Source: OCS155 cluster bacterium AG-349-E07
Lineage (GTDB): Bacteria > Actinomycetota > Acidimicrobiia > Actinomarinales > Actinomarinaceae
DNA length: 64,000 nt
Reading direction: 5' to 3'
Assembly (NCBI GenBank): GCA_003281085.1
Contig: QCCZ01000001.1
Coordinates: 163,452-227,451, forward strand
In this document: positions 3,713 through 7,964 of the stretch, one piece after another
How the letters are laid out: each line of letters starts with the position of its first letter
How positions within the stretch are numbered: position 1 is the stretch's first letter
Program-made: the position numbers and the translations under genes
Notes under the pieces: generated by a model
What the model saw: the letters and a program-made list of their open reading frames with translations, nothing else
Database searches by the model: none
Told to the model about the DNA's origin: nothing

Positions 3713-3754
3713 ATGAAAAATGTAACTAGCTGGAATTGGTGGTCAACTACATAG
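3713..3754 (+). CDS. trp leader peptide MKNVTSWNWWSTT
   Basis: 13-codon ORF with three Trp codons (two tandem), directly upstream of an attenuator hairpin and a TrpB gene. Confidence 0.85.
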   Translation: MKNVTSWNWWSTT

Positions 3755-3779
3755 GTAGGTGCCCCACTAGTTAGTTCTT

Positions 3780-3804
3780 AAACCGGGCACAGCCCGGTTT
3801 TTTT
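3780..3804 (+). terminator. Trp attenuator terminator hairpin
   Basis: AAACCGGGC-ACA-GCCCGGTTT followed by a T-run; GTGCCC at 3759-3764 can pair with GGGCAC at 3785-3790 as an antiterminator. Confidence 0.85.
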
Positions 3805-3857
3805 GTTACTGTCACTGAAATTAAAACTCCGGGCTCAACCCAAACAAAGGAGTAAAA

Positions 3858-5213
3858 ATGAAAGAACAGTACAAATTTTTATTAGATGAAAATGATATTC
3901 CAAAACAGTGGTACAACATTGTGCCTGATTTACCGAATCCTTTACCTCCGCAGTTGAATCCACAGACTATGGATCCAATCGGTCCAGAGGATTTAGCACC
4001 GTTATTCCCAATGGGGTTGATTCTGCAGGAAGTGTCTGACCAAAGCTATATAGATATTCCTGAACCTGTTTTAGATTTGTATAAGCTATATAGGCCTTCA
4101 CCGATGTATAGGGCTTTAAGGCTTGAAAAGGCTTTGGGAACAGAGTCAAGAATATATTATAAATACGAAGGTGGGTCACCATCAGGTTCTCACAAACCAA
4201 ATACAGCAATTCCTCAAGCATATTACAACGCAGAAGAAGGAATAAAAAAAATGGTTACAGAAACGGGTGCTGGTCAGTGGGGTTCAGCTTTGTCATTTGC
4301 ATGTCAAGCCTTTGGAATTGAGCTTGAAGTTTTTCAAGTAGCTGCGTCTTTTGAGTCAAAGCCTTACAGAAAAACAATGATGGAGATATATGGTGCTACT
4401 GTCCATCCAAGCCCGTCTGGGAGAACTGATATCGGTAAACAATTTTTGTCAGAAGATCCAAATACTCCAGGAAGCCTTGGAATAGCAATCTCTGAAGCAA
4501 TTGAGGTTGCAAGGAAGGAAGAAGGAACAAGATACGCATTAGGAAGCGTCCTAAATCATGTTCTCATGCACCAATCAATAATTGGTCTTGAAGCACTGAA
4601 ACAAATGGAGATGGCTGATGACTACCCAGATATAATTGTTGGTTGTACTGGTGGTGGTTCAAACTTTACTGGGCTATTTTCACCGTTTGCTAGAAACAAT
4701 ATGAAAACAGAGCAAAAAACTATTATTCGTGCGGTTGAACCAGAGGCATGCCCCTCATTAACTAAAGGTGTTTACACATATGACTTTGGGGATTCAGTAG
4801 GAATGGCACCTGTTGTCAAAATGCACACTCTTGGTTCAAGTTTTGTCCCAGATCCGATTCATGCCGGTGGGTTGAGATACCATGGAATGGCTCCTCTTGT
4901 GAGTGCACTTTATGAAGACAAAGCAATAGAAGCAGAAGCGATTGGTCAAAAAGAATGCTTTGAAGCTGGTCAACTATTTGCTAAAACAGAGGGCATAGTA
5001 CCTGCTCCAGAAGCAACTCATGCAATTGCATCAGCAATTAGAGCAGTGAAAGATGCTGACCAAAATTCTGAAAGTATTGCCGTTTTGACAGCAATGTGTG
5101 GACATGGTCACTTTGATATGAAAGCTTATGAAAACTTTTTGAGTGGGGAGATGGTTGATTACGAATTTCCATCTGAAAAAGTTCAAGTAGCTTTGGAGTC
5201 AGTCAAAAAATAG
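3858..5213 (+). CDS. trpB2: Tryptophan synthase beta chain, TrpB2 type
   Basis: PLP-enzyme motifs EGGSPSGSHKPNTA and CTGGGSNF; long N-terminal extension typical of TrpB2; preceded by a Trp leader. Confidence 0.92.
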   Translation: MKEQYKFLLDENDIPKQWYNIVPDLPNPLPPQLNPQTMDPIGPEDLAPLFPMGLILQEVSDQSYIDIPEPVLDLYKLYRPSPMYRALRLEKALGTESRIYYKYEGGSPSGSHKPNTAIPQAYYNAEEGIKKMVTETGAGQWGSALSFACQAFGIELEVFQVAASFESKPYRKTMMEIYGATVHPSPSGRTDIGKQFLSEDPNTPGSLGIAISEAIEVARKEEGTRYALGSVLNHVLMHQSIIGLEALKQMEMADDYPDIIVGCTGGGSNFTGLFSPFARNNMKTEQKTIIRAVEPEACPSLTKGVYTYDFGDSVGMAPVVKMHTLGSSFVPDPIHAGGLRYHGMAPLVSALYEDKAIEAEAIGQKECFEAGQLFAKTEGIVPAPEATHAIASAIRAVKDADQNSESIAVLTAMCGHGHFDMKAYENFLSGEMVDYEFPSEKVQVALESVKK

Positions 5214-5220
5214 GTAAAAA

Positions 5221-7455
5221 ATGGATGATCGAATAAATTATGGTAACAAAGCTAAAAACCTAGAGTTCGTAGCAAACCATACGGATATAAAAATTCCATA
5301 CTTTAGAGAGCTTTCTTTGAAAGATTTAGGAAATATTAACGAGATTCTTAATAATTTTTCAGAAGAAATAATGATAAGAAGCAATAGTTCTAATGAAGAC
5401 TTGGAGAGCTCCTCTAATGCAGGTAAATATCTTTCCATCGGACCAATTAAAAAGGAAAAAATAGAAGATATAAAAGAATCATGGAATCAGGTCTTGAGTA
5501 GCTATGAAAAAGATGCCAATCAAACCGTAATTTTGCAAGATTATGTAAAAAACGCAAAGAGCGTATCTGTGCTTACATCTTTTAAGGTTGGGACAGACTC
5601 TCTTTATCGTTCATTTTCAATTTATAATGGGCCAGAAACTGATGCAGTTACATCTGGAAAGTACAATCAGATTAAAAATTTCTATGTTCATAGATCAATA
5701 AACAAGTTGCCAAATAAATATAAGGAATATTCCGTTTATCTAAAAATTCTGACAAAACTAGAAGATTTATTTGGGAACAAACATTTAGACATTGAAATGG
5801 TTCTGGATAATAATTCTTCACCTCTACTTTTACAAGTTCGGCCTCTGATGGAGAAAAAAGTTAATAAGGATTTGATATTTACAGAGAAAAAAATAATTGA
5901 GCAGAATGTCAAAAAGTATGACTCTTCAAAAGAAACTACAAACGATCGTTTTGGTATCAATCAGCTTTTTAGCAATATGTCAGACATGAATCCAGCCGAA
6001 ATGATTGGAAAAAAACCCGACAATGTTGCATTTGGTTTATACAAATTTATGTTTACAGACTCAACATGGAATATACAGCGTGGTGAATTTGGTTATAGAA
6101 AATATAAACCGGCTAAATTAATGGAACTTTTCAATAATGTAGCCTATATAAATGTAAACCATAGTTTAAATAGTTTTTTAACTCGAAGCTTGCAAGCCGA
6201 TAGTTGTGAAAAAATAATACAGCATCAATTAGAAAAATTAAAAGAGAACCCACAATTACATGATTCAATTGAATTTAATATCTCTCGATCCTCATATGTG
6301 TTTGATACTGAAGATGAATTTGCTGTTGAATATAAAAACATTATTAGCCCAGAAGAGATTCAGAAATGGCATCAGGATTTAATTGAAATTGATAGCTTAA
6401 ACAAATCAACCCTAGAAAAAAATAATGAAACTATGTTAAGGGCATTCTCTTTGCTTGATGGGAATTTTAAATACTCTAAAAAAGAAAATATAGAATTTAT
6501 TAGAGACAATATGGCGTTGCCGTTTACTCATCATTCAAGGCTGGGATTTGTGTATTTTGCTCAATTAAACAATCTTTTGAGAAAAGATGTAATTACCGAA
6601 GCACAAAAGAACTCATTACTGTTGTCAGTAAAGTCGATAAGTACGAAAATGAAGTCGGATGCCTATCAGGTCAAACTTGGAAATAAAAGTCTCAGCAGCT
6701 TTTTAGACATTTATGGACACATAAGGGCTGGTAACTATAATCTATCTTCATCTAATCTAAAAAACAATTTAGAGTTTACAGAGATGTTGGTTCATAATAG
6801 TGAACCCCAAGATGAAAATATTTCATTGCAAAAAGTTATATTTCAAAATATTGATAAATATTTTGAATTAAACAATATTCCATACACGGCATCAGCTTGG
6901 GTTGAAATGTTTCAGACCGCTATTGCAACAAGAGAGAATTCAAAATTTTACTACACAAAAGGAATTGACGGTATTTTAAATGAAATAGAGGAGCAAAACA
7001 TAAGCGACGAAGAACTTTTTCAAAGACTAAATATTAAATTTAGCCAAGAAAATAAAATTAATTTAGATCTTAAAAACACATTAATGCCTGACTTAATCTC
7101 GTCATCCGATGATTTTTATTTATATGAGGAAATGAGCAAAGACGGAAATTACATCGGACAAGGAACAGTTTCTGGGAAAGTTTTACTTCTAGATAATTAT
7201 TCAAATCAGCCTTATGACCTCGATAATAAAATTGTAGTTATTCCAGCAGCAGACCCCGGATGGGATTGGATTTTTAATTATAAAATCAAATCCTTGATTA
7301 CCCAATATGGGGGACCAAACTCTCACATGGCGATAAGGTGTGCTGAGCACAATATTCCAGCAATTCTTGGTGTTGGTGAAAATAATTTTTCAATGATATC
7401 TACATCGCAAAGCCTATCAATAGATTTTTCAAATGAAAGTTTTGCAATTGTTTAG
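5221..7455 (+). CDS. PEP-synthase/rifampin-phosphotransferase-like enzyme: ATP-grasp N-terminus, middle domain, phosphohistidine swivel C-terminus
   Basis: IRSNSSNEDLESSSNAGKY and LLQVRPL (ATP-grasp); VIPAADPGWDWIF...YGGPNSHMAIRCAEHNIPAILGVG (phosphohistidine domain) at the C-terminus. Confidence 0.8.
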   Translation: MDDRINYGNKAKNLEFVANHTDIKIPYFRELSLKDLGNINEILNNFSEEIMIRSNSSNEDLESSSNAGKYLSIGPIKKEKIEDIKESWNQVLSSYEKDANQTVILQDYVKNAKSVSVLTSFKVGTDSLYRSFSIYNGPETDAVTSGKYNQIKNFYVHRSINKLPNKYKEYSVYLKILTKLEDLFGNKHLDIEMVLDNNSSPLLLQVRPLMEKKVNKDLIFTEKKIIEQNVKKYDSSKETTNDRFGINQLFSNMSDMNPAEMIGKKPDNVAFGLYKFMFTDSTWNIQRGEFGYRKYKPAKLMELFNNVAYINVNHSLNSFLTRSLQADSCEKIIQHQLEKLKENPQLHDSIEFNISRSSYVFDTEDEFAVEYKNIISPEEIQKWHQDLIEIDSLNKSTLEKNNETMLRAFSLLDGNFKYSKKENIEFIRDNMALPFTHHSRLGFVYFAQLNNLLRKDVITEAQKNSLLLSVKSISTKMKSDAYQVKLGNKSLSSFLDIYGHIRAGNYNLSSSNLKNNLEFTEMLVHNSEPQDENISLQKVIFQNIDKYFELNNIPYTASAWVEMFQTAIATRENSKFYYTKGIDGILNEIEEQNISDEELFQRLNIKFSQENKINLDLKNTLMPDLISSSDDFYLYEEMSKDGNYIGQGTVSGKVLLLDNYSNQPYDLDNKIVVIPAADPGWDWIFNYKIKSLITQYGGPNSHMAIRCAEHNIPAILGVGENNFSMISTSQSLSIDFSNESFAIV

Positions 7456-7484: not shown

Positions 7485-7964
7485 TCAATCCAAATAAAGA
7501 GTGGTTATCTCCTTCCACTCTGACACTTGAGGGCCTGTTTTGTAAACAGCAATAGTGTCAAAAGTGAGTGCTACAGGGATGAGTTTATTGAGCTCCCCCA
7601 GATCAAAAGATTTGGGTAACTCATCCCCGTAGTACAACGATAAATGAGGAACCCATAAACTAGGCCAGCCTTCTATTTTTGAAACAGAGTGAAAAAAATA
7701 AGTATTATCTGATGATTCGAGATACAGCTTTTGAAAGTATGCATCTCCTGTAGAAATTTTATCAAAAATAACTGAAGACTTGTTGTCTGATAGTTTTTGC
7801 AAAATATTCAGTGCTTTTTCTTCTGAATTTATATTGGAAACAAGTGTTACGTGGGGAGAGAAAGAGTCTTTGTTTTCTTCACTTGCATATCTTTTGATAA
7901 GATCAAAAATCTTTTTATTGTGTACTGAATTTTGAAGCCAAATAGAGTAAGTTTCTTTAGTCAT
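7485..7964 (-). CDS. 2H phosphoesterase / cyclic phosphodiesterase-like protein
   Basis: Two HxS/T-type motifs: SPHVTLVS and VPHLSLYYG. Confidence 0.75.
   Translation of the reverse strand: MTKETYSIWLQNSVHNKKIFDLIKRYASEENKDSFSPHVTLVSNINSEEKALNILQKLSDNKSSVIFDKISTGDAYFQKLYLESSDNTYFFHSVSKIEGWPSLWVPHLSLYYGDELPKSFDLGELNKLIPVALTFDTIAVYKTGPQVSEWKEITTLYLD

Follow-up and report, generated by a model that had tools for sequence, protein, structure and literature searches.

Which molecule is phosphorylated by a dikinase-like enzyme whose gene follows trpB2 behind a tryptophan-sensing leader? The question is raised by a locus of Candidatus Actinomarina (loci L001–L011 and the window's own genome, G000), the window being the whole stretch of 64,000 nucleotides that we analyzed. 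It contains the following features:

3713–3754, + strand: trp leader peptide MKNVTSWNWWSTT with three Trp codons (from the sequence)
3759–3790, + strand: candidate antiterminator GUGCCC (3759–3764) / GGGCAC (3785–3790), mutually exclusive with the terminator
3780–3804, + strand: intrinsic terminator hairpin AACCGGGC-ACA-GCCCGGTT followed by a U run (from folding)
3858–5213, + strand: trpB2, a TrpB-like PLP enzyme (PRK12391/TIGR01415; NCBIfam 699 bits against a cut-off of 366)
5221–7455, + strand: kinase ORF, an orphan PRK05849-type (glutamine-kinase-like) dikinase of 744 aa (NCBIfam NF004508, 498.7 bits, and profile match)
5221–5856, + strand: ATP-grasp domain, aa 1–212 (alignment, conservation count and a weak PPDK_N match)
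5857–7140, + strand: acceptor domain, aa 213–640 (NPAE motif with M256 in place of Trp, HDS-EF, GHIRAGNYN and R571-E572-K575)
7141–7452, + strand: phospho-histidine swivel domain, aa 641–744 (Pfam PEP-utilizers, PF00391, the mobile His domain, at aa 669–736, E 2.5e-13)
7324–7326, + strand: catalytic His702 in TQYGGPNSH (T/S-x-x-GG-x-x-x-H motif)

The trpB2 stop codon and the ATG of the kinase ORF are separated by 7 nt, as the initial annotation had stated, and the ATP-grasp and His-domain motifs quoted there, IRSNSSNEDLESSSNAGKY, LLQVRPL and YGGPNSHMAIRCAE, were all found in the translation. We regard the ORF as a real gene because 12 Actinomarina species genomes carry it undisrupted and it evolves with a dN/dS of ~0.1–0.2 in unsaturated comparisons. 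Alignment placed the conserved ATP-grasp residues at K10, R53, E59/D60, Q106, D190/E192 and Q205/R207/P208, with the weak Pfam PPDK_N (ATP-grasp) match at aa 47–94, and the acceptor domain of ~430 aa is positioned between this domain and the His domain, which bears the motif described for RPH/HpeH (PMC12167813). The claim that the protein has no PEP/pyruvate barrel was borne out, as Pfam returned no PEP-utilizers_C match in the kinase even at E ≤ 1; the protein ends 42 residues past His702 and, therefore, a barrel behind the His domain has no room. PEP synthase and PPDK share the ATP-grasp and His domains with the kinase but differ in possessing the TIM barrel, whereas the His domain of the kinase is C-terminal, and PpsA identity was rejected on these grounds. 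An AlphaFold2 model built from 12 Actinomarina sequences was poor (pLDDT 44, pTM 0.36).

The middle region of ~400 aa, first described as unrecognized, turned out to be recognizable as part of an NCBIfam family. The search returned a single clear family, NF004508/PRK05849, whose database label is 'hypothetical protein', with the next family at 35 bits. The curated cut-off of NF004508 is 501 bits, so that the kinase falls 2.3 bits short, and relatives scored 482.8 and 489.2 bits; missing the cut-off by 2 to 18 bits implies a divergent relative and not a clean assignment. A tblastn search in plasmids recovered 13 near-full-length homologues with 24–29% identity, mostly from Proteobacteria, and the seven plasmid-borne homologues tested scored 761–942 bits against PRK05849. 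By hhalign, the Actinomarina proteins and the cassette kinases (PRK05849 members outside Actinomarina) are collinear over their full length (724 columns, E 2.1e-90), at an identity of only 22–28%. On these alignments the kinase is a divergent PRK05849 member throughout its length, an assignment that would correct a generic 'PEP synthase / RPH-like' label. All Actinomarina kinases share one very long branch in the tree (4.1 changes per column). No PHROGs family matched the kinase, and a scan of viral contigs with the family alignment gave no match.

We then consider how the kinase is controlled. Wherever a trpB2 locus was examined whose upstream sequence is complete, a Trp-rich leader precedes trpB2. 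The leader peptides have two or three Trp codons, and the terminator hairpin is paired in 14 of 14 distinct leader sequences. The candidate antiterminator was paired in 97.6% of cells across 14 leaders and contains one G-C/C-G double change, although 34 of 500 shuffles reached as high a value; Rfam models searched over the leader produced chance-level matches only. Judged by this conservation, the leader and terminator are real and constitute a trp attenuator-controlled unit, as had been proposed for trpB2 and the kinase, and they add such a unit in a genus that lost tryptophan biosynthesis.

Among 42 Ca. Actinomarina genomes the kinase occurs in 12 and trpB2 in 15 (both in 10, kinase only in 2, trpB2 only in 5, neither in 25), a co-occurrence with a Fisher p of 1e-4, uncorrected for phylogeny or incomplete genomes. 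The kinase was found only in genomes that have trpB2 or the scar of its deletion. It is rare elsewhere in the phylum, and a phylum-wide search (397 genomes, E ≤ 1e-60) returned no further member besides the window's own genome. The leader–trpB2–kinase order is present in six of the 12 kinase genomes (the window, L001, L002, L003, L005 and L010). In L004 and L006 trpB2 has been deleted and the kinase directly follows the leader, with the same junction in both; trpB2 was not found elsewhere in these two genomes. In lineage B (L007, L008, L009 and L011) the kinase is located right behind a DoxX-like gene with no leader, and trpB2 has stayed at the original site together with its leader, ~54 kb from the kinase in G006, the one genome measured with both on one contig. 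Thus, the conserved adjacency to trpB2 that had been anticipated holds in six kinase genomes and is not universal, given four kinases located elsewhere and two with trpB2 deleted, and the lineage B kinase without a trp leader implies that Trp control is not essential to kinase function.

Three further features of these loci were observed. The DoxX-like membrane protein of lineage B (145 aa), encoded 2 nt before the kinase (region L007:7516-10229) and without a match in the window, is a possible partner of the lineage B kinase. At almost every locus of the trpB2 site, a convergent cyclic-phosphodiesterase / 2'-5' RNA ligase-like gene (PF07823; window 7485–7964, − strand) neighbours the kinase or trpB2. 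The leader–trpB2 blocks (window 3713–5213; L001, L002, L003) come in two types, SWNWW and MYKVTNWNWW, and the window and L003 kinases are 90% identical yet have blocks of different types; the lineages have apparently swapped these blocks, the kinase staying linked.

The existence of two kinase loci in the genus, one beside the DoxX-like gene and free of trp control, together with the five genomes that keep trpB2 without the kinase (leader–trpB2 in the four examined), is what would be seen if the kinase had merely been inserted behind trpB2 and co-transcribed, its function unrelated to tryptophan. We consider this unlikely, in view of the confinement of the kinase to genomes with trpB2 or its deletion scar and of the comparison between the two loci that lost trpB2. 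The 219-nt interval separating the ABC gene and the kinase, which takes in the leader, the terminator and the RBS region before the kinase, differs by 2 substitutions between L004 and L006, compared with 52 of 540 positions in other intergenic DNA (Fisher p 2.7e-6) and a divergence of ~16% at the kinase's four-fold sites. This contrast suggests that Trp control of the kinase alone has been under selection after the loss of trpB2, with the limit that the promoter from which the divergent ABC gene is transcribed may also lie in the 219-nt stretch.

The gene context of the family outside Actinomarina, where most members lie in phosphoramidate cassettes of the Cj1418 (L-glutamine kinase) type, bears on the acceptor. 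Five plasmid kinases directly precede a Peptidase_C26-type GATase gene and a nucleotidyltransferase (NTase) gene, one further plasmid kinase has both nearby, and an APS-kinase-like gene is part of several kinase cassettes. When the whole class was searched, three more kinases were recovered from other Acidimicrobiia, each with a GATase homologue beside it; genome G086 (L084) has a kinase-GATase-NTase row, G083 has both genes beside the kinase, and the G199 contig has a GATase fragment. In the phage-collection contig MT837632 (L038:652-3687) a PRK05849 kinase and a GATase form one ORF, supporting a functional link between the two. Because this cassette context matches Campylobacter Cj1415–Cj1418, which convert glutamine, ATP and CTP to CDP-phosphoramidate 3'-phosphate (PMC11800397), we infer that PRK05849 is the family of Cj1418, an L-glutamine kinase. 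The Actinomarina kinase shares with the Cj1418 type its full-length homology to the cassette kinases, the domain order, the catalytic His and the ATP-grasp and R-E-K motifs. The only function known to us for PRK05849 / Cj1418-type kinases is phosphorylation of the glutamine amide (L-glutamine kinase, EC 2.7.3.13).

The Actinomarina kinase departs from the Cj1418 type in its trp-attenuated locus and in its lack of GATase, nucleotidyltransferase and APS-kinase partners. The GATase and NTase partners are absent at every Actinomarina kinase locus examined and had no match in G000 (85% complete), and in the kinase-bearing relatives searched the matches were limited to weak and short ones to the NTase, in G006, G010 and G017. 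The acceptor domain differs as well. Relative to columns at least 90% conserved in ten GATase-linked kinases, the Actinomarina proteins retain 26 of 39 in the ATP-grasp domain, 46 of 74 in the acceptor domain, charged motifs included, and 24 of 31 in the His domain. The changed acceptor positions include W256→M, K349→S, P503→A, T505→N, D507→N and Y513→L; HDK-EF has lost its Lys, and the RPGTYD motif has changed. The Trp of PDWNPAE, present in all ten GATase-linked kinases, is Met in Actinomarina and Val or Leu in the other partnerless PRK05849 lineage seen, that of Cupriavidus and Microvirga. That this Trp tracks glutamine specificity is a lead, not a proof, because it is drawn from only two partnerless lineages. 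With the Trp replaced and other acceptor-domain residues different, the acceptor of the Actinomarina kinase may be other than glutamine.

We therefore weighed whether the protein could be an ordinary L-glutamine kinase that makes N-phospho-glutamine, the later steps falling to unrelated, unrecognized enzymes. The full-length homology and the 46 retained acceptor columns are what such an enzyme would display, but the partner genes missing from the loci and from G000, the changes in PDWNPAE, HDK-EF and RPGTYD and the long branch render it unlikely. The altered acceptor residues and the missing CDP-phosphoramidate partners indicate that the kinase has probably ceased to serve phosphoramidate synthesis as a glutamine kinase, or does not do so exclusively, and the retained acceptor-domain scaffolding suggests an acceptor that is amino-acid- or amide-like. 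The initial annotation's claim of a small-molecule acceptor of a still-unnamed kind stands. We note that the partnerless kinases of Cupriavidus and Microvirga (nodule bacteria) are on plasmids (L037:7812-13379; L040:4259-10172), with genes for a TPP enzyme resembling acetolactate synthase and for a HisC-like aminotransferase nearby, and probably mark another, uncharacterized pathway.

Our preferred reading, to which we assign a probability of about 0.5, is that of a three-domain PRK05849 dikinase, switched by Trp starvation, that is probably not (or not only) a glutamine kinase and catalyzes a scavenging step or a step in nitrogen or aromatic metabolism. In the putative mechanism, ATP bound in the ATP-grasp domain would pyrophosphorylate His702, the gamma-phosphate would leave His702 as Pi, and the swivel domain would bring the other phosphate to the acceptor domain, and R571-E572-K575 would help there to hand it to the acceptor, giving the net reaction acceptor + ATP + H2O → phospho-acceptor + AMP + Pi. 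The conserved motifs make the ATP → AMP + Pi chemistry via phospho-His702 well supported; the kinase reaction, the acceptor class and the physiological role we infer. In the window's lineage the leader and attenuator common to TrpB2 and the kinase would turn both on under tryptophan starvation, and the kinase would most likely act in scavenging, or in a step of nitrogen or aromatic-metabolite metabolism, that is linked to a lack of Trp in this auxotrophic genus. For HpeHI, a related two-component dikinase, scavenging of diffusible aromatics via phosphorylation has been proposed (PMC12167813); for the present kinase, a scavenging role under Trp shortage is the preferred reading, if an unproven one. 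The partnerless, Trp-controlled lineage belongs to a marine actinobacterium that is abundant and streamlined. It may be the point at which the glutamine-kinase family gained another role, and it offers M256, S349, residues 503–508 and L513 as candidate specificity residues along with a short list of acceptors.

A narrower proposal is a tryptophan-salvage kinase, a converted relative of glutamine kinase whose acceptor would be indole, a derivative of indole or Trp, or a Trp-linked amide. Phosphorylation, perhaps at a nitrogen atom, would trap the compound inside the cell and keep it available during Trp starvation. We regard this as very unlikely, and we know of no small-molecule kinase of this type. 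As to the physiology of the host, trpB2 encodes the only TrpB found in the genome, with no second TrpB seen in the genus. Neither trpA nor trpC was found in the 42 Ca. Actinomarina genomes (controls 14/14 found), and published work calls the order that includes Actinomarina Trp-auxotrophic (PMC7771536); for these reasons TrpB2 is presumably an indole-salvage enzyme.

The operon position and co-occurrence with trpB2 could also be explained if the kinase were a serine dikinase supplying O-phosphoserine to TrpB2, and Busch et al. 2014 reportedly found TrpB2 enzymes to be O-phosphoserine-dependent. The normal source of O-phosphoserine is SerC, however, which is present in G000 and was matched in 33 of the 42 genomes, so that TrpB2 would need no kinase for its supply; we rank the serine dikinase low for this reason. 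With TrpB2 present and the kinase absent in five genomes, the kinase present and TrpB2 absent in two, and no serine kinase of this family known to us, we judge it highly unlikely.

An antibiotic kinase of the rifampin phosphotransferase (RPH) type is extremely improbable, since the shared domain order and catalytic R-E-K triad are offset by a RIF_Ptrans_rph score of 20.9 bits, in the His domain only, against a cut-off of 999, by an Actinomarina-only profile that meets RPH in the His domain alone, and by the lack of the NPAE and HDK-EF blocks in RPH. The RPH-like rather than PpsA-like character assigned at the outset was thus correct for domain order and triad, but the closest family is PRK05849 and not RPH. 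Actinobacterial RPH aligned over 644 columns (E 4e-32) with a profile built from the non-Actinomarina members of PRK05849, and among solved structures the family profile matched Listeria RPH (5fbs, 5hv1-3) in the ATP-grasp domain, the C-terminal acceptor part and the His domain. RPH (5FBS/5HV1) and the kinase both have the ATP-grasp / acceptor / C-terminal swivel His order, the ATP-grasp domain of the kinase being the shorter. Arg666-Glu667-Lys670 of the Listeria enzyme correspond in the alignment to R571-E572-K575, and mutagenesis has shown that rifampin phosphorylation cannot do without Arg666 and Glu667, which are essential for the transfer step (PMC4844700). Given the His-domain-only match of the Actinomarina profile and the 724 versus 644 aligned columns, RPH has, on these profiles, the same architecture and is less closely related to the kinase than the cassette family of glutamine kinases is. 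The two-component aromatic dikinases (HpeHI, CreHI and PpsAB), which we compare with the kinase by description, share the swivel chemistry, and low-Km scavenging of small molecules has been proposed for them (PMC12167813), but they consist of two separate polypeptides and use phenolic acceptors. At the N-terminus, several of the cassette kinases are extended by ~200–240 aa that are absent from Actinomarina (L032:7146-7860; L035:7050-7700; L084:4857-5600), and the extra N-terminal region in L085 matches a nucleotidyltransferase.
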